Assembly: GCA_026129485.1 (NCBI GenBank)
Contig: JAHCHY010000005.1
Coordinates: 1 to 64,000, forward strand
Source of the DNA: Cyclobacteriaceae bacterium
GTDB lineage: Bacteria > Bacteroidota > Bacteroidia > Cytophagales > Cyclobacteriaceae
Length of the DNA: 64,000 bases
Direction of reading: 5' to 3'
Position 1 is the stretch's first letter. Each line of letters starts with the position of its first letter. Made by a program: the position numbers and the translations under genes. Below, in pieces: positions 9,956-16,599 of the stretch. The notes beneath the pieces are model-generated. The model did no database searches and was not told the DNA's origin. It saw only the letters and a list, made by a program, of their open reading frames with translations.

Positions 9956-11434
9956 TTAATTGATCAATTTATTGTTCAATAGCTCATCGTTCGACATCGG
10001 CCAGATGTAATTAGGAGCATTTGGCTGCACCGTGGGTGTTGTATAAACAGTTCCTGCTTTCGCAGGGAAAGGTGTAACAAGCCTTAAGATGTCATTTGCA
10101 CGAAATCCTTCACCCAGCAATTCAATTCTCCGCTCAATCAAAATGGCGTCAATTAATCCGGCCTGATCTAATGCCGGGAAAGTATAGTCGGCATCTGACC
10201 GGCCATGCACCGCTTTCAAAAGCTCTTCGGCCAAAGCCAGGTTGCTGGCGCCACCTGCACGCGCAGCCGCTTCGGCATAATTCAGCAATACTTCTGAATA
10301 ACGGATTACCGGTACATAACGCAGGAAAGGTGCTGCTGTGCCAAACTTGTTCAGGTAATAACGGCCGCCTTTTGCTGCATCAAGATTTGCGTTGTGGTTC
10401 AGGAAGCCTCTGCGTGCATCGGTAGATGCCCATTGCGGCTCAGCAAATATTTCATCCCAGTTTAAGCAATAGTCGGGCGTGGCAACATACATATATCCCA
10501 GGGCGGATTGTCCTGCCAACATATCCAGGCTTGTAAACGGCATGGAGAAAACTGATTCCGTAGTAGTGTAATTGGTGGCAAACAAGTTAACGATGTTAGA
10601 CTGCAGCGCATGTGCTACCCCCGAAGTAGCCGAGAATGGAGCTGCTGCCTGGGGTACAATCTTTGCCGCTTCTTCAATTACCTTGGCATAGTCGCCCTGG
10701 TTCAGGTAAACTCTTGCCTTTAAAGCAATGGCCGCGTTTTTATGAGCACGGGTCGTGTTTAAAAGAGCTGTTGATCGGGTTGTTGGAAGAGCCGTTTCCG
10801 CATCATTCAGATCTTGTATAATCTGGGTATAAACCTGTGCCACTGTGCTGCGGGCCAGGTCGTTGTTTGCAGGAGTTGTCTCAGCCTGCAAACGCAAAGG
10901 TAAACCGGGCGATCCACCGTTATCCTTGTTATAAGGTTGCGCATACGCGGTTACCAGAGTGAAATACGAAAGAGCCCGTAAGAATTTCGCTTCAGCAACA
11001 TACTCTGAAGCCACGGCAGCATCTATAACTCCTGTATTTTGAGCAAGACCATCTATCAGGATGTTTGCCCTGTTTATAGTCGTGTAACCTACCGACCATA
11101 CATTGAGTATGTCTGCCGCCCCGGAATTATAGCTGTGGTTCCATGCATCAAACCCGGTAAAGGAGTTACCCCCGGTATTAATAAAGTCTTCTCCTGCAGC
11201 ATCCCTGAAAAGATGGAGGCGGCCTCCATAAAAATTGGCCCCCTTAAGAGAGCTGTATATGCCATTTACCAAACCCTCAATACGAGCTGGTGTGCTGAAT
11301 GCATCCGCAGCGCTGATCTGGGTAGGAGGAATCTTTTGCAAGTATTCATCTTCATCGCATGATGAAACCGTAAACAGAAGCGCCAGGCCAAGCAGGCCTC
11401 CTAATTTCCTGAAAGATTTATATGTTATGTTCAT
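9956..11434 (-). CDS. SusD/RagB-family outer-membrane lipoprotein
   Basis: Surface-exposed nutrient-binding lipoprotein that caps its SusC partner. The start at 11434 places a lipoprotein signal at once: basic N-terminus, hydrophobic stretch, lipobox VSSC followed by Asp-Glu-Asp, a typical Bacteroidota surface-export signal. An ATG 30 bp upstream (11464) would add ten polar residues. The usual features follow: N-terminal TPR-type helices (SusD-like 3 domain, with FLRALSYFTLV) and the C-terminal RagB region with RRIELLGEGFRANDILRL. At 492 residues it is of normal length. It lies 45 bp after SusC. No glycosidase or peptidase is nearby to reveal the ligand. Confidence 0.93.
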   Translation of the reverse strand: MNITYKSFRKLGGLLGLALLFTVSSCDEDEYLQKIPPTQISAADAFSTPARIEGLVNGIYSSLKGANFYGGRLHLFRDAAGEDFINTGGNSFTGFDAWNHSYNSGAADILNVWSVGYTTINRANILIDGLAQNTGVIDAAVASEYVAEAKFLRALSYFTLVTAYAQPYNKDNGGSPGLPLRLQAETTPANNDLARSTVAQVYTQIIQDLNDAETALPTTRSTALLNTTRAHKNAAIALKARVYLNQGDYAKVIEEAAKIVPQAAAPFSATSGVAHALQSNIVNLFATNYTTTESVFSMPFTSLDMLAGQSALGYMYVATPDYCLNWDEIFAEPQWASTDARRGFLNHNANLDAAKGGRYYLNKFGTAAPFLRYVPVIRYSEVLLNYAEAAARAGGASNLALAEELLKAVHGRSDADYTFPALDQAGLIDAILIERRIELLGEGFRANDILRLVTPFPAKAGTVYTTPTVQPNAPNYIWPMSNDELLNNKLIN

Positions 11435-11479
11435 GTTTATCGTAGTTGATAATTTAACATTCATTGAGTTTTTAACTTA

Positions 11480-14400
11480 TTACAGGCCAATGTTTACACC
11501 AACAGTAATCGTACGGCCATTACCCAGTGAGTTATACTCAATACCGGGAGATTGGTTCCTGTTACCATTAATAGATGACTCAGGCTCCACACCGGTATAT
11601 TTTGTGAACAGGAACACGTTGGTAGCCTGCACATAAACACGAGCTGAGCTCAGGCCTGCCTTGCTCAGGATAGTTCCGGGCAGCTTATATCCGGCCATAA
11701 CATTTTGCAAACGCACAAAATCTCCCTTTTCGATATAAGCAGAGATATTAGGGATGTTTGCACTGGCGAAGTTATCGCCATACACTAAGCGGGGAACATC
11801 GGTAACATCACCCGATTCTTGCCAACGATCCAGCACCTTTGTTGAGTTGTTGAAATAGCGTTGGTCTAACCATGTGCCCGTGTTCCCATTGAGTATATAG
11901 TTGCCCCCTGAGAAAGAAAAGTTGACCGCAAAATCAAAGTTGCCATACCTGAACGTATTGATAAAGCCACCATACCACTTAGGCAATGCATTGCCCAACG
12001 GCTGATAGTCTGCCGCAGTGATAGCGGCAGCCTGTGTTCCGTCTAAGTAAGACCATTGATACTCTCCGGCACCTACAACAAGAGAGTATTGTACTTCATC
12101 CCCATTCCTGTTAACATAAATCCTTCGTCCGTTTACGGGATTTACACCATTGGTAACCGCACCAAACAATGTGCCTACAGAATAACCTACCTGAGTCATA
12201 TTGAAAGGATTTCCTGAAGAAGCGTGCACCAAACGGGAGCCTTCTGTTGCCAATGATGTAACTTCATTCTTCAGTGTTGTTATGTTGAATGAGGCATTCC
12301 ACGAGAATTTCGATTTGCGTATTACTTCACCGCTAATGGCCAGTTCAATGCCACGGTTGTAAAGTGAGCCAATGTTAGCCCATATAGAGTTACCGGGAAT
12401 ACCTTTTGACGCAGCCTGCGGCACACTAAGGATCAAGCCGTTTACATCGTTATTGAAATAGCTGAAATCGACTTGCAGGCGATCATTTAATAACCCAAGG
12501 TCAAAACCAATGTTGGTTTGCTCTCCTGTTTCCCAGCCTAAGTTCGGGTTTGCGGCCTGGTTAATAGCAAGCGTGGGAGATGCTCCGTACAGACCTGCAG
12601 AGTACAGACCCAAGGAAGCATATGGATCAAGATTGCCGTTACCTACACGACCCCAGCTGGCACGCAGCTTCAAAGAGGTTAATGTATTGGAAAGACCTGA
12701 TGTCTTATAAAAATCTTCTTCAGAAATTGTCCATCCGCCAGATACCCCGCCAAAATTCCCCCATTTTCTATCAAAGCCCAGCGAAGAGTTTCCATCCCTG
12801 CGGAAATTGATGGTAAGAAAATACCGCGAGCTGAAATCATAATTCAAGCGGCCGAAGTAAGAAATAAATGCCCTGTCCCAAAGATTATTTCCGGTTGCGC
12901 TGATTTGTCCCCAGGTACCCTGGTAATTAACAAAGTAAGGATCAGCAGCCTGCTGCACGTTGGCTCCCCATGCATTTGTGCTGAATTCCTGCAAATCAGA
13001 ACCCACCAGGGCAGTTACATGGTGTGAGCCGAAACGAGTATCGTATTGCAGAGTATTGGAGAAATCCGTGTTATTTCTTGTCGAAGTTATATTCGAGATG
13101 GAACCACGTGTGCTATAACCGGATGAACCGGGAACAGGCTCGGCTACTATCCTGTTATTGATGATCAGGCGATCTACCGAGTAATTGGTGGTAAAGGTAA
13201 GACCCTTGGTAAAGGTAAGCGTAGCTCCCACATTTGCCAGGATACGATCGTTGGCAGAAGTTTCCCTGCGATGCTTAAATAAAGTTACCGGGTTATAATA
13301 CACGCTCACTACGGTATTTGCTCCGTTTCCAACGGTAGCGTTGGCATCATTATAATTTAGATGAGGTGTTCCATCGGCATTGTAAACAGGTACGTTAGGC
13401 TGGAGTGTCCAGGCCATGCGTGCCGCACCGATGATCAGCTGAGCGTTACCGTCCATCGAACCGGAGTTAGGCGCACGGTTTTCGGAATTGGTATAATTAA
13501 TACCACCGGTCAGCTTCAGCCAATCGTTCACTTCATGGTTAACATTAAGACGCATACCCTGGCGATCAAACTCGTTTGTTTGTAAAATACCCTGCTGGCG
13601 GCTCAGGTTTGTTGAGAAGAAGTAGGTGGTTTTAGCGCTTCCCCCGCTAATGCTCAACGCATGGTTGTGCGAAACACCAGTTTGAAATATATAGTCCAGC
13701 CAATTGGTATCAACCAAAGAGCCATCAGCATTATAGCTGGGGAAAAAAGCATCCGCCTGGTTGGCATTTCTCCTCGATTCATTTTTGATTTCCATAAACT
13801 GCTCGGCATTCAATAATTCAGGAAGACGAACAGGAGAGGTCCAGCCTACCCAGCCGTCATAGGTTACTTTTGCCTTACCTTCCTTGCCTCTCTTGGTGGT
13901 AACTAAAATTACCCCGTTGGCACCACGTGAACCATAGATAGAAGTAGAAGCAGCATCTTTCAATACGTCAATCGACTCAATGTCCGAAGGGTTGATGTCG
14001 GCCAACGGGTTGTTGGGTACAGAAGTGGTTCCCAGGTTATCACCTGCCGTTACCGGGATACCGTCAATCACGATTAACGGATAAGAGCTTTGTGTAATGG
14101 AGTTTACACCCCGCACACGAATTACCGGTGCATTATTCAATACACCATTGGGTAATGAAATTTGTACTCCTGCGGCACGGCCTATTAAAGCCTGATCGAA
14201 ACTCTGAACAGGAATCTCCTGTAAGCTGCTTGCTGAAACCCGGGTGGCAGAGCCGGTAAATTCTTGTTTGGATTGCGTACCATACCCCACCACAAGAACC
14301 TCGGCCATCAATTGCTGGTCAGCATCCAACGTAATGTTTATCGATGTTCTGTTTCCAACGGCTACCTCCTGGGTCTTGAATCCGATAAAACTGAATACAA

Positions 14401-14599
14401 GCACTCCATTGGGGGGAACTGTTAAACTGAAGGATCCTTCAGCATCGGTGGTGGTGCCCACAGTTGTTCCTTTTAACAATACGTTTGTTCCGGGAAGCGG
14501 GCCATCACTGCTTGTTACTTTTCCTGTTACCACCCGGTCCTGGGCAGCAACTGAAAAAGCAAACAGCAGAGTAGAGCATAATAGTAAAAGCTTACTCAT
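11480..14599 (-). CDS. SusC/RagA-family TonB-dependent outer-membrane transporter
   Basis: TonB-dependent receptor of 1039 residues. Order of parts: signal peptide (1-19), carboxypeptidase-D-like regulatory domain (about 23-100, VTGKVTSSDG to INITLDADQ), SusC signature and plug (VVGYGTQSKQEFTGS, later VIRVRGVNS and PLIVIDGIP), then a 22-strand barrel ending in Leu. With the downstream SusD it forms a bipartite importer for large nutrients. It is the first full-length gene after the SAM riboswitch, leader peptide and terminator array, with 113 bp between the short ATP-grasp-like frame and its ATG. I find no convincing promoter in those 113 bp, so read-through from the riboswitch promoter is plausible. 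Confidence 0.95.
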   Translation of the reverse strand: MSKLLLLCSTLLFAFSVAAQDRVVTGKVTSSDGPLPGTNVLLKGTTVGTTTDAEGSFSLTVPPNGVLVFSFIGFKTQEVAVGNRTSINITLDADQQLMAEVLVVGYGTQSKQEFTGSATRVSASSLQEIPVQSFDQALIGRAAGVQISLPNGVLNNAPVIRVRGVNSITQSSYPLIVIDGIPVTAGDNLGTTSVPNNPLADINPSDIESIDVLKDAASTSIYGSRGANGVILVTTKRGKEGKAKVTYDGWVGWTSPVRLPELLNAEQFMEIKNESRRNANQADAFFPSYNADGSLVDTNWLDYIFQTGVSHNHALSISGGSAKTTYFFSTNLSRQQGILQTNEFDRQGMRLNVNHEVNDWLKLTGGINYTNSENRAPNSGSMDGNAQLIIGAARMAWTLQPNVPVYNADGTPHLNYNDANATVGNGANTVVSVYYNPVTLFKHRRETSANDRILANVGATLTFTKGLTFTTNYSVDRLIINNRIVAEPVPGSSGYSTRGSISNITSTRNNTDFSNTLQYDTRFGSHHVTALVGSDLQEFSTNAWGANVQQAADPYFVNYQGTWGQISATGNNLWDRAFISYFGRLNYDFSSRYFLTINFRRDGNSSLGFDRKWGNFGGVSGGWTISEEDFYKTSGLSNTLTSLKLRASWGRVGNGNLDPYASLGLYSAGLYGASPTLAINQAANPNLGWETGEQTNIGFDLGLLNDRLQVDFSYFNNDVNGLILSVPQAASKGIPGNSIWANIGSLYNRGIELAISGEVIRKSKFSWNASFNITTLKNEVTSLATEGSRLVHASSGNPFNMTQVGYSVGTLFGAVTNGVNPVNGRRIYVNRNGDEVQYSLVVGAGEYQWSYLDGTQAAAITAADYQPLGNALPKWYGGFINTFRYGNFDFAVNFSFSGGNYILNGNTGTWLDQRYFNNSTKVLDRWQESGDVTDVPRLVYGDNFASANIPNISAYIEKGDFVRLQNVMAGYKLPGTILSKAGLSSARVYVQATNVFLFTKYTGVEPESSINGNRNQSPGIEYNSLGNGRTITVGVNIGL

Positions 14600-14712
14600 A
14601 ATTAATTGGGTTTAGGTTATTGATTAATATTTGAAATGTAGATAATCATGGTTTCAAAACCGACATGTTTTTTTGGATATAGATGCCGAAAACGATTTCA
14701 ATGGGCAAATTT

Positions 14713-14916
14713 TTACCCTGTATCTAAAAAATTTTGTTCAAAATCATGATTGTATGGTAATTTTTGATGCATCTTGGCCAACACAGGGAAACGAAGATGC
14801 TGTGCTGCATTAAGGCGCACAAAAGGAAGTCTGCGTTTTTCCAGTTTGGCAAGCAAGGGCTCGAACCACGCAGGGTGTTCATAATAAACAGCTACAGGTT
14901 TTATAGACCAGGTCAT
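14713..14916 (-). pseudogene. N-terminal fragment resembling an ATP-grasp (RimK/glutathione synthase-like) protein
   Basis: A 67-codon frame whose first ~45 residues (KPVAVYYEHPAWFEPLLAKL and the following RRLPFVRLNA) read like the N-terminal pre-ATP-grasp strand-helix-strand of a RimK/glutathione-synthase-type ligase, normally over 300 residues. The ATP-binding and grasp domains are absent: the frame stops and the next 113 bp lead straight to SusC. The sequence after HLRF no longer looks like the family. I read this as a remnant left by a deletion. A genuine small protein is possible, since the frame follows a regulated leader closely and its start sits in AT-rich DNA typical of Bacteroidota initiation regions. 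Confidence 0.55.
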
Positions 14917-14936
14917 GATTTGTAAAATTTTTATAT

Positions 14937-14968
14937 GGAAAAATATAAGGAGCGGCCCGGAAGGCCTC
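14937..14968 (-). terminator. Intrinsic terminator overlapping the leader-peptide stop codon (candidate attenuator)
   Basis: On the minus strand a GC-rich hairpin (GAGGCC, loop TTCCG, GGCC plus CTC with a short bulge) is followed by CTTATATTTTT. Its left arm begins inside the TGA of the 27-residue leader peptide. A competing pairing exists: TCAGGC at 15013-15018 in the leader coding sequence is complementary to GCCTGA at 14967-14972. Attenuation is inferred from this layout. Confidence 0.65.
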
Positions 14969-15050
14969 AGGCAAACAATGACTGACAACAACAAGACGAG
15001 TTGCTGTACTGAGCCTGAATGATTGATGCGTTGTGTAATGTAGCTTTCAT
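14967..15050 (-). CDS. 27-residue leader peptide with a Cys-Cys-Cys run
   Basis: A short frame starting 10 nt after the P1 helix of the SAM riboswitch. It encodes 27 residues: MKATLHNASII at the start, then an SSCCCQS segment with three consecutive TGT codons (20-22), then SLFA and TGA. The stop codon lies inside the left arm of an intrinsic terminator. The combination of riboswitch, short frame with a run of one amino acid, and terminator is the layout of an amino-acid attenuator, so I infer a cysteine-sensing leader peptide. There is no Shine-Dalgarno sequence, as usual in Bacteroidota. The alternative is a small Cys-rich functional peptide. The start is the only ATG in this frame. Confidence 0.6.
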   Translation of the reverse strand: MKATLHNASIIQAQYSNSSCCCQSLFA

Positions 15051-15060
15051 GGTACTGTTA

Positions 15061-15173
15061 ATTTATAATTCTTCCTGGCACCTTGCCGGAAGCAGGTTGT
15101 GGCACTTATTCAGTTTAACCTGAAAGTTGCCAGGGGTTCATAGAGCCTGTCTCTCCCCTCCTTCTGTATAAAT
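15061..15173 (-). promoter_or_regulatory. SAM-I (S-box) riboswitch aptamer
   Basis: The minus strand folds as a SAM-I aptamer. P1 is 7 bp, ATTTATA (15167-15173) with TATAAAT (15061-15067). P2 is AGGGG/CCCCT with an inner AGAG/CTCT helix and kink-turn ATGAA. The conserved GGCAAC follows, then P3 TTCAG/CTGAA, then the junction GTGCCA. The P2 loop CAGG can pair with CCTG after the junction, the expected pseudoknot, and P4 is CTTCC/GGAAG. No terminator overlaps P1. The 3' strand of P1 ends 10 nt before the leader-peptide ATG, so SAM binding probably blocks translation of that peptide. S-boxes normally turn expression off when SAM is plentiful and control methionine or sulfur genes. Confidence 0.92.
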
Positions 15174-15208
15174 GTGGTGTAAATGTACTATTGATTTTGT
15201 ATAAAACC

Positions 15209-15228
15209 ATAAAATCTATAGATTTTAT
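15209..15228. repeat. 20-bp perfect palindrome upstream of the SAM riboswitch
   Basis: ATAAAATCTATAGATTTTAT is a perfect palindrome between the stop of the secreted-protein gene (15232) and the riboswitch. It could be an operator near the riboswitch promoter. A terminator is less likely, since it is AT-only at the ends and no T-run follows. Confidence 0.6.
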
Positions 15229-15231
15229 ATA

Positions 15232-15684
15232 CTAATTATTTGAATCTCTTTCGTCCGTTGATGGGAACACATTATCTTTTTTGCTGTAGGCAATGTTTCG
15301 ATTTCTGATCTCTGCTTTGGCATTCTTAACTTCTTCACCTCCTCTATCGCTGACAGTAAAGAGCAGGTCGCGCTGGTTGTGGAGCAGGTGCAGTGAGATA
15401 TTGTTAACCGAAACCAATTCATAATGCAGCTTGTCGCTGATCGTTTTCAACACTAAGTAATGCCCGACCGGTAATTCATTTTGAAACCGGGCGGAATCGG
15501 TAGGATAAAGTGTGTGCAGCGAATGACAATACGCCTGCGAAGGCTTTTGATTCTTATGCAGCTTTTCCGCTTCTGGATTAGTTAGCTTATATACAAACGT
15601 GAAGTAGCTGCTGCGCCTTCCGGTAGTAAGATCTTGCGCATAGGAAATAGTCGAAACAAAAAGACACAGTAAAAGTAATCTCAT
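15232..15684 (-). CDS. Secreted protein, probably the truncated N-terminus of an alpha-2-macroglobulin-like protein
   Basis: 150 residues with a clear signal peptide (1-16, ending SYA before QD). The middle contains VGHYLVLKT and, further on, HNQRDLLFTVSDRGGEEV, an MG-domain-like pattern that I associate with the first domain of the very large alpha-2-macroglobulin-like proteins of Bacteroidota. Those proteins exceed 1,500 residues, so this would be only the N-terminal stump; the tail after residue 130 is polar and unstructured. The recognition is by eye and tentative; a genuine small secreted protein cannot be excluded. It follows the PLP enzyme by 15 bp on the same strand, and its stop lies next to a palindrome and the S-box. 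Confidence 0.5.
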   Translation of the reverse strand: MRLLLLCLFVSTISYAQDLTTGRRSSYFTFVYKLTNPEAEKLHKNQKPSQAYCHSLHTLYPTDSARFQNELPVGHYLVLKTISDKLHYELVSVNNISLHLLHNQRDLLFTVSDRGGEEVKNAKAEIRNRNIAYSKKDNVFPSTDERDSNN

Positions 15685-15699
15685 AGCAATCGGGTTTGG

Positions 15700-16599
15700 T
15701 TACCGAAAGCCCTGCAAACCCTGTAGTCCACCGGTGTGTAAAACCAGCACCGTGCTTCCCCGCCTGAATTTGCCTTTCGCGATCATATCCAGCACACCCC
15801 ACATCAGCTTGGCGGTGTAAACCGGGTCGAGCGGAAGATTATAGCTGGCGTTCATCTCATCCATAAAGGCAAACAGTTGCGGGTTGGTTTTTGCATAGCC
15901 TCCGTGATGATAGGATGTTTCGATGTGCCAGTTTCCATAAACCGGGTCTGAAAAATTTTTCAAATGACTTTTGATTTCGTCTGTAAGAAAGGTTCCGTCT
16001 TTTAAAGCCGAAATACCAATTACCTGCTGCTGTTTATCCAACCCCACAATCATCCCCGCCATCGTTCCGCCCGTGCCCACGGGCAGACACAAATAATCGA
16101 AAGAAGCTTCTGCTTTTAATGACTGAGCAAACTCAGCAACACCTTTCACAGCTAACGGATTGGTTCCGCCTTCCGGTATCAGGTAAAAATCACCAAACTT
16201 GTTTTGAAGTGATTCTATAAACGAAGGTTCTGTTTTGCTTCGATATGCTTCGCGCGAAACATAATGCAACCGCATGCCCTTGCTTTTTGCGAAAGTAAGA
16301 GTAGCGTTAAGCGGCAGTGTTTCTTCCCCGCGAATGATGCCAATGGATTTCAAATCCAGTTCATGCGCTGCGGCTGCCGTTGCATAAATATGGTTGGAAT
16401 AGGCACCGCCAAAGGTGAGCGGGGTTTTATGGTCTTGCCGTTGCGCAGCTTCGAGGTTGTACTTCAGCTTCCACCACTTGTTGCCCGACACAAACGGGTG
16501 GTTAAGGTCTTCGCGTTTGATGAGCAGGTTTATACCGGCCTGCCGGGTTTCGGGAGCGGTTATCTCCGTAATAGGTGTTTTGTTGTACTGCAAGGCCAT
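15700..16599 (-). CDS. PLP-dependent D-cysteine desulfhydrase / ACC deaminase family enzyme
   Basis: Fold-type II PLP enzyme of 299 residues. The PLP-binding Lys is in SGNKWWKLK (Lys41). The family's GGAYSNH motif follows, as do a phosphate-binding GTGGTMAG loop and a C-terminal LVLHTGGLQG. Members open 1-aminocyclopropane-1-carboxylate or release H2S from D-cysteine; sequence alone does not separate these, and D-cysteine desulfhydrase is commoner in bacteria. It lies upstream of a riboswitch-controlled unit on the same strand, so a sulfur link is attractive, but it is outside the riboswitch transcript. Confidence 0.87.
   Translation of the reverse strand: MALQYNKTPITEITAPETRQAGINLLIKREDLNHPFVSGNKWWKLKYNLEAAQRQDHKTPLTFGGAYSNHIYATAAAAHELDLKSIGIIRGEETLPLNATLTFAKSKGMRLHYVSREAYRSKTEPSFIESLQNKFGDFYLIPEGGTNPLAVKGVAEFAQSLKAEASFDYLCLPVGTGGTMAGMIVGLDKQQQVIGISALKDGTFLTDEIKSHLKNFSDPVYGNWHIETSYHHGGYAKTNPQLFAFMDEMNASYNLPLDPVYTAKLMWGVLDMIAKGKFRRGSTVLVLHTGGLQGLQGFR

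Follow-up and report, generated by a model that had tools for sequence, protein, structure and literature searches.

A SAM-I riboswitch joined to a probable cysteine-codon leader peptide before sulfur genes of a Bacteroidota genus, with a rearranged copy upstream of a SusC/SusD pair

The leader locus and its rearranged surroundings

The window analysed here is a whole 64,000-nucleotide stretch of a Cyclobacteriaceae genome (contig JAHCHY010000005.1, positions 1 to 64,000), in which a leader region on the minus strand precedes a SusC/SusD gene pair. The leader opens with a SAM-I (S-box) riboswitch aptamer at 15060..15174, which a preliminary description had called complete and which the covariance-model search confirmed as such (RF00162, full length 1-108, 71 bits versus a cut-off of 44.4, E 1.3e-14); this copy is one of five S-boxes in its 4.08-Mb genome. 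Bacteroidota promoters follow the consensus TTTG/TAnnTTTG, and a promoter-like site of this type (TATG, 20 nt, TACATTTA, with 8/10 consensus positions) lies just 5′ of the aptamer at 15180..15211 on the same strand, in a window of which 249 of the 64000 minus-strand positions score 8 of 10 or better. Nine nucleotides 3′ of the aptamer, an ATG starts the 27-aa leader-peptide frame MKATLHNASIIQAQYSNSSCCCQSLFA (14967..15050, minus strand), which contains the cysteine codon triplet TGT TGT TGT at 14985..14993 and ends at a TGA stop (14967-14969). Four of the 781 ATG frames of 15-60 aa in the window bear such a CCC run, and the peptide has no NCBIfam match. Further along the minus strand are a truncated 67-aa ORF (14713..14916), with no Pfam or NCBIfam family match, a SusC/RagA TonB-linked outer membrane protein (11480..14599; TIGR04056, 823 bits) and a SusD-family lipoprotein (9956..11464; PF14322 and PF07980), the pair having solved-structure matches to a SusC/SusD homologue, RagA/RagB and similar proteins only. 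Thus the cysteine frame shortly after the aptamer and the SusC/SusD pair were both found where they had been described; the truncated 67-aa ORF, a truncated neighbour at 15232-15684 and a second leader in this genome, closely paralogous over its full extent, had been overlooked.

This second leader, hereafter the C4 leader, is 80% identical (355/442 positions) to the window segment 14801..15239 (minus strand), which covers the leader and the start of the following gene. The C4 gene order is leader, 332-aa RimK-like ATP-grasp protein (domain assigned by profile search), AhpC/TSA-type protein, 260-aa ORF, and an S-box with a metB/C-type gene. The C4 leader has its own promoter-like site (GTTG, 20 nt, TACGTTTA), likewise agreeing in 8/10 consensus positions. 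Nine substitutions and two gaps separate its aptamer from that of the window, and two compensatory pairs (alignment columns 22/32, G-C to A-U, and 54/63, A-U to G-C) account for four of these substitutions. The first 39 residues of the 67-aa ORF are 33/39 identical to the C4 ATP-grasp protein, and a second piece weakly matches C4 residues 128-141 (9/14); the step from residues 1-39 to 128-141 indicates an internal deletion, whose junction lies within the ORF. Among the 40 codons shared with C4, 20 are the same, 13 have silent differences and 7 encode another residue, and this excess of silent over residue changes suggests that, since it parted from C4, the window copy probably functioned as a gene most of the time. 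By protein comparison, the cistron that once followed the window leader was of the RimK-like ATP-grasp type, paralogous to the C4 gene, and it now appears internally deleted and cut short.

The peptide itself also bears marks of change. The C4 peptide ends in TGT TGT TGT TGC followed by CGG TAA, and the window frame has TCT at the first of these cysteine codons and TCA at the TAA stop, so that it reads on to the TGA. Its last cysteine is consequently five residues from the stop, which makes it an outlier of its class, since this distance is 0 in 55 of 63 frames; because cysteine runs end at the stop in those frames, the window state is suggested to be the derived one, and the peptide seems partly decayed. 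On the other side of the leader, a 150-aa ORF (15232..15684, minus strand) corresponds to the N-terminus of an MG2-type (alpha-2-macroglobulin-like) gene: its first 140 residues are 65% identical to a protein of a related genome, G172, with a frame of 1961 codons, whose first 641 aa match MG2 (PF01835) at 29.1 bits, below the curated cut-off of 32.8. The remnant breaks off at the edge of the leader segment, the full gene being nearly 2000 codons long in some relatives. The truncated MG2-type neighbour and the truncated ATP-grasp cistron together indicate that the locus was rearranged on both sides. Note that a PLP enzyme of the D-cysteine desulfhydrase / ACC deaminase family is encoded directly upstream at 15700-16599; it scores below the cut-offs of all listed families and is a possible candidate for a link to sulfur.

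Recurrence of the aptamer and cysteine-run frame

Relatives were searched for the same arrangement using 140 S-box hits in 62 genomes of the genus, of which 138 were read, two hits of one genome (G183) being left out as below the cut-off. A cysteine-run frame was counted when an ATG within 15 nt of the aptamer opened a frame of 15-60 aa with adjacent cysteine residues, and gene classes were set with short motifs occurring within the first 900 nt, an assignment checked by profile on one example each of metY, metH, metB/C, metX, ATP-grasp, OsmC and YceI. Such frames precede metY in 41 of 46 cases, OsmC in 9/9, YceI in 7/7, ATP-grasp in 6/6 (the window being counted here by virtue of its remnant) and metX in the single case (1/1). 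In contrast, by the same criterion they are absent before all 56 metH and all 12 metB/C S-boxes of the genus, which are an internal negative control. The pairing of aptamer and cysteine-run frame is beyond chance, and is a recurrent arrangement across the genus; in this respect, the earlier suggestion to look for it in relatives led well past the window. The five metY leaders without adjacent cysteines comprise one lacking a cysteine frame (L144), one masked by N within the peptide (L159), one with the peptide in another reading frame (L187) and two with cysteines but no CC (L175 and L180). One leader sorted as 'other' (L102) is of the YceI type by translation and has cysteine without CC, and another counted under metY (L176) has a peptide resembling those of OsmC leaders.

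Altogether, 64 cysteine-run frames, the window included, directly follow an aptamer in the genus (63 of them distinct); the peptides are 23-50 aa long, and each of the 64 has its AUG 1-13 nt beyond the aptamer. Cysteine accounts for 204/315 of the last five residues of the 63 distinct frames, and for 99/315, 56/315 and 15/315 in the successive five-residue bins upstream, falling to 7/619 at residues 21-30 from the end and 3/686 at residues 31-60; in long ORFs of the window, its share is 0.55%. The final residue is cysteine in 55 of the 63. The spacers between cysteines vary while the cysteines stay (e.g., CTCTCCCC, CICICCCC and CCNICCCMRCCC), and both codons are used (TGT 242 versus TGC 117, compared with 34:64 in long ORFs), which points to selection acting on the codons. 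Moreover, the N-terminal parts of the peptides diverge between gene classes and only the cysteine tail is kept, as for an attenuator peptide whose remaining sequence is free to vary. Conserved codons at a fixed place within an otherwise free sequence are the expected look of a leader peptide that reports a charged tRNA, and the run of codons expected of an amino-acid attenuator is seen both as CCC in the window frame and as the cysteine runs before metY and the other genes.

The coupling also extends beyond the genus, to metY leaders in three further families of the class. In a class-wide sample of 44 genomes, all 38 S-boxes outside the window's own genome were read, and a cysteine-run frame follows four of the five metY S-boxes (families f1, f2, f40 and f41, with f39 lacking it) and none of the 33 others. 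In a family-level sample, for which the 29 best-scoring loci outside the window's own genome were read, the eight metY leaders comprise four with a cysteine run at or near the C-terminus, one with an internal CC and three without any. A cysteine peptide before metY is common, not universal.

Folding around the peptide and the expression platforms

The short distance between aptamer and AUG, only 1-13 nt, brings the 3′ strand of P1 into the start region, and this strand overlaps the last 18 nt before the AUG by 5-17 nt in all 64 leaders scored. With P1 formed, the modelled accessibility of the AUG region drops in 56 of the 64, an outcome partly built into the model by construction, and is not reduced in the other 8, the C4 copy included. 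Ribosomes of Bacteroidia do not rely on Shine-Dalgarno pairing, according to the relevant part of PMC9976891, and an unpaired start region should therefore matter for initiation. From these models, we infer that SAM would damp translation of the leader peptide.

Downstream of the peptide, the mechanism drawn in the preliminary description did not hold in the window. It had placed an intrinsic terminator here, with its left arm beginning in the stop codon of the peptide. A hairpin, GGCC-UUCC-GGGCC, is indeed present at 14954..14966 (minus strand), directly 3′ of the stop, although the scan tool recognised no intrinsic terminator, such as an amino-acid attenuator would have, within 14590-15260 (shuffle mean 0.6); GCUCC comes next to the stem, and five consecutive U begin only 10 nt later, in a U-rich stretch at 14939-14948. 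The placement relative to the stop codon describes the displaced-stop state of the window. The segment UCAGGC at 15013..15018, 5′ of the cysteine codons, had been proposed to compete with the terminator by pairing with GCCUGA at 14967-14972. This pairing does occur in the folds (its C4 counterpart being UCAGGC with GUCUGA), but it lies beside the hairpin and both form together, so no mutually exclusive terminator and antiterminator were seen in the window with the crude ribosome masks that we used. With the same masks, the closing pair of the hairpin has a probability of 0.84-0.99 with no ribosome, with a ribosome at the AUG or with one at the cysteine codons; in the fold model, it takes a ribosome at the stop codon to open the hairpin, and the hairpin of the C4 leader persists even then. 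No cysteine-dependent fold switch is visible in the modelled window leader, which argues against the switch by ribosome position that had been suggested there. With no terminator recognised by the scan tool and with the folds coexisting, terminator-centred attenuation in the window was rejected as it had been drawn, and control via translation or via Rho is possible instead. A possible alternative for the C4 and window leaders, based on two sequences, is seen in the fold of the C4 leader, where UCAGG of the peptide frame pairs with the ATP-grasp gene at its start region.

A looser script of our own did report a terminator-like site in the window, inside the peptide frame and over the TGT repeats, which we took as an artefact. 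Indeed, TGTTGT mimics a U-rich tract, and this script is confounded in cysteine-run leaders, so that its counts against shuffles are not evidence for metY (31/46 vs 25/100), OsmC (9/9 vs 8/36), YceI (6/7 vs 3/28) or ATP-grasp (3/6 vs 4/24, one of the three sites being that of the window copy within the peptide frame). For S-boxes without the peptide, the script found a terminator-like hairpin before metB/C in 11/12 leaders vs 3/48 shuffles and no excess before metH (6/56 vs 13/100). Among relatives, it scored a strong terminator after the cysteine frame of one ATP-grasp leader (L193), and the same hairpin is seen by eye in two others (L148 and L164).

Expression platforms after the cysteine peptide differ by downstream gene. 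In 36 aligned metY and OsmC leaders, a conserved element follows the peptide stop, with a small hairpin, GCAACAA and a second hairpin whose loop has an invariant GUG.C; it is placed, for example, at L005:1247-1331 (minus strand), with 35 more loci in the alignment (A1). Its motifs run in the order GCAACAA, CUARCCUAYGG, UGCCRGGUGACAGGYA and GGUUAYG. The 36 were taken from 42 motif-picked leaders, two being left out as near copies of L053 (L097 and L099), two because they looked unrelated (L103 and L140) and two because the picker had taken an earlier motif (L119 and L138). The structure was proposed by eye and its pair counts were tested on the same alignment, a procedure that leans towards the proposed structure; changes on both sides occur in 13 of 19 pairs (shuffle mean 7.8, a value reached by 1 of 500 shuffles), 85.3% of cells pair (77.0 in shuffles and at most 43.9 in slid versions), and the covariation score is 0.349 (0.210 in shuffles, at most 0.150 slid). 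RNAalifold returned only three pairs for the element, and in our own script an energy of 0. Three metY leaders (L138, L143 and L185) retain the second hairpin though their peptide and the preceding spacer are strongly divergent.

A model of the element detected one copy each in 6 of 88 family genomes (5 of 84 genera); in the class sample it had hits in 2 of 198 genomes, both of this genus. All six copies of the family search lie downstream of an S-box, and the four copies outside the genus follow cysteine-run frames (G015, G074, G084 and G024), the run of G074 not being at the very end of the peptide. A search of 12 loci, seven of them bearing the element, against Rfam 15 at E up to 1 returned SAM only and no match to the element, and the model found none in the window, in the five other ATP-grasp leaders or in the two YceI leaders searched.

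Readings of the leader and the position of SusC/SusD

Our preferred reading, to which we give a probability of about 70%, is that the window holds one copy of a recurrent two-layer leader, composed of a SAM-I aptamer and a leader peptide with C-terminal cysteines ahead of a gene-specific platform, and that the ATP-grasp cistron of this copy was internally deleted and cut short. The preliminary description had three layers in series; the aptamer and the cysteine frame stood, and the terminator did not. It was largely right, and what it saw is more general than it first appeared, even though its mechanism for the window is not supported. SAM and charged Cys-tRNA as two inputs are the best reading of the anatomy, and the recurrence of aptamer and cysteine frame together before sulfur genes upholds this part of the attenuator proposed earlier. 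Under such a scheme, SAM binding would close P1, the 3′ strand of which lies within the ribosome landing site of the peptide, and high SAM would lower peptide translation. Scarce charged Cys-tRNA would then make the ribosome pause at the cysteine codons and change the folding of the downstream RNA or its cover by the ribosome, and the outcome would set expression of the next cistron, with sulfur genes answering to both SAM and cysteine supply. In the window, deletion of the ATP-grasp cistron would have left the leader upstream of SusC/SusD with no other visible promoter, and the pair may have been captured. The full claim, namely that Bacteroidota have a two-input leader computing SAM and Cys-tRNA, that varied platforms are grafted onto it, among them, in metY/OsmC leaders, an RNA element absent from Rfam so far, and that SusC/SusD captured one such leader by deletion, is tentative and falls a little short of even odds.

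Methionine-pathway genes are the usual targets of S-boxes, and tandem riboswitches combining SAM and AdoCbl aptamers exist. Sherlock et al. reportedly described tandem riboswitch logic gates in 2018; these share the two serial inputs, but both of their layers are aptamers, whereas here the second is a translated leader peptide. S-box targets of the methionine pathway are treated in the part of PMC9971707 relevant here, and our aptamers are likewise full-length members of RF00162, the difference being the cysteine-codon leader peptide 1-13 nt after the aptamer. In Salmonella, the mgtA leader joins an Mg2+-sensing riboswitch to the proline-codon frame mgtL, as described in the relevant section of PMC6460261, which likewise gives an RNA sensor plus an amino-acid-codon leader peptide and two inputs in one leader; its inputs are Mg2+ and proline and mgtL overlaps riboswitch bases, whereas here the inputs would be SAM and cysteine and the frame follows a complete aptamer. 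Mycobacterial polycysteine short ORFs (Canestrari et al. 2020, as cited in PMC9094748) are reported to be Cys-responsive operon attenuators with similar short cysteine-codon frames, but they are leaderless and belong to a different phylum, and the passage citing them mentions no riboswitch. Since the window frame starts 124 nt after the first aptamer base, a transcript bearing the aptamer would not be leaderless. The metL peptide of Streptomyces lividans (29 aa, before metNIQ, having Cys as well as Met codons close to the end) is also a cysteine-codon leader peptide ahead of a sulfur amino-acid gene set, although it is read as a methionine leader on a leaderless transcript, with no aptamer in front in the section concerned (PMC8079986). 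Strong signs of attenuation by leader peptides were reported ahead of amino-acid operons in the text of a flavobacterial transcriptome study (PMC9723704). A SAM riboswitch with a cysteine-codon leader peptide was not found described in the open-licence full texts searched, a body that mostly excludes subscription papers and also the supplements of PMC9723704, in line with the earlier remark that no description of the tandem in Bacteroidota was known. Riboswitches and amino-acid leader peptides are usually seen as separate solutions, and here the spacing that couples them is nearly fixed throughout a genus in which the metH and metB/C S-boxes without the peptide provide a natural control, making the two-input question directly testable. 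For a phylum that has been little studied, the arrangement also hints at the signals to which leaders of metY, OsmC, YceI and ATP-grasp genes respond.

Other explanations of the cysteine run appear improbable to differing degrees. The last residues of a peptide are still within the ribosome exit tunnel once translation has arrived at the stop codon, and cysteines placed at the very end, as in 55 of 63 frames, would be inside it; this placement, the unfixed cysteine spacing and metY as the commonest target all make it unlikely that the run acts as a metal or thiol sensor in the nascent peptide with no report on Cys-tRNA. Such a sensor has a precedent in CruR, an upstream frame that contains cysteine, as ours does, in a CXXC motif and controls the TonB-dependent transporter lying after it, and redox- or metal-looking genes do occur in the gene runs of relatives (a di-haem MauG/MbnH-like enzyme, YceI and an AhpC/TSA-type protein). 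However, CruR is a 145-aa copper sensor working by Rho-dependent termination, and the passages on it in PMC9426467 mention no riboswitch. It is somewhat less likely still that RNA pairing, rather than coding, explains the conservation of the UGU repeats: by eye, the GCAACAA after the stop could pair with UGUUGU in metY and OsmC leaders, and TGT is favoured (242:117 vs 34:64), but the frame stays open from the aptamer-adjacent AUG in 64 leaders, the spacers between cysteines vary in RNA sequence, and the window, five other ATP-grasp and two YceI leaders keep the cysteines without the downstream element. We consider least probable of all a functional small Cys-rich peptide, such as a metal-binding or modified product; in six leaders the frame has an ATP-grasp gene, or what is left of one, as its neighbour, yet the same type of frame stands before metY, metX, OsmC and YceI, the N-terminal parts differ between gene classes although the Cys tail stays, and the window peptide matches no NCBIfam family.

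A different doubt concerns the window copy only, which could be a dead remnant of the ATP-grasp gene deletion, leaving SusC/SusD under neither SAM nor cysteine control; we rate the chance of this as slightly under one half. The internally deleted cistron, the truncated MG2-type neighbour, the displaced peptide stop with one cysteine codon fewer than in C4, and the lack of any other S-box read with SusC as first gene are all in keeping with it, and the 13 silent against 7 residue changes imply a copy probably working until recently, in which an intact aptamer need not mean present use. Against this, the aptamer is intact at 71 bits with compensatory changes, the promoter-like site is retained, the frame and its cysteine run are intact, and no other promoter above background precedes SusC. 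Indeed, the best promoter-like site in 14590-14830 (8/10) lies within the ATP-grasp remnant and is no better than background; a separate SusC promoter, which would have spoken against the earlier proposal, was thus not seen in that interval.

Returning to the two-layer leader, control of SusC/SusD by the window copy is weakly supported by these sequence features, at roughly even odds, and the gene deletion may have handed the leader to an outer-membrane importer. The proposal that the pair imports a sulfur nutrient is weak: no promoter of its own was seen, but a SusC-type ORF is the first gene after none of the other genus S-boxes among the 138 read (135 + 3; first gene only), and no link through orthologues emerged. 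The 20 other SusC homologues listed in the genus (E up to 1e-150) do not exceed 48% identity (46-48% for the best), share a contig with a listed S-box in five genomes only (G157, G161, G172, G182 and G200), and in none of the 20 cases lie within 100 kb of one on the same contig, a reach limited by short contigs. A sulfur link of SusC/SusD via orthologues was accordingly rejected for these 20, and the SusC/SusD part is a testable by-product of the rearrangement.

A parallel in relatives speaks for the importer link: an S-box/Cys leader of G172 heads a run of genes that includes a TonB-dependent receptor besides YceI and a di-haem MauG-like enzyme, and the gene order in G182, judged by length and start, is the same. 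At L272:3888-16900 and L273:4706-17724, with protein families profile-tested in L272 only, an S-box/Cys leader is followed by YceI, proteins of 420, 426 and 146-147 aa, a MauG/MbnH-like di-haem enzyme and, as the last of the run, a TonB-dependent receptor. Next come a second S-box/Cys leader with the ATP-grasp gene and a third S-box with a metB/C-type gene.
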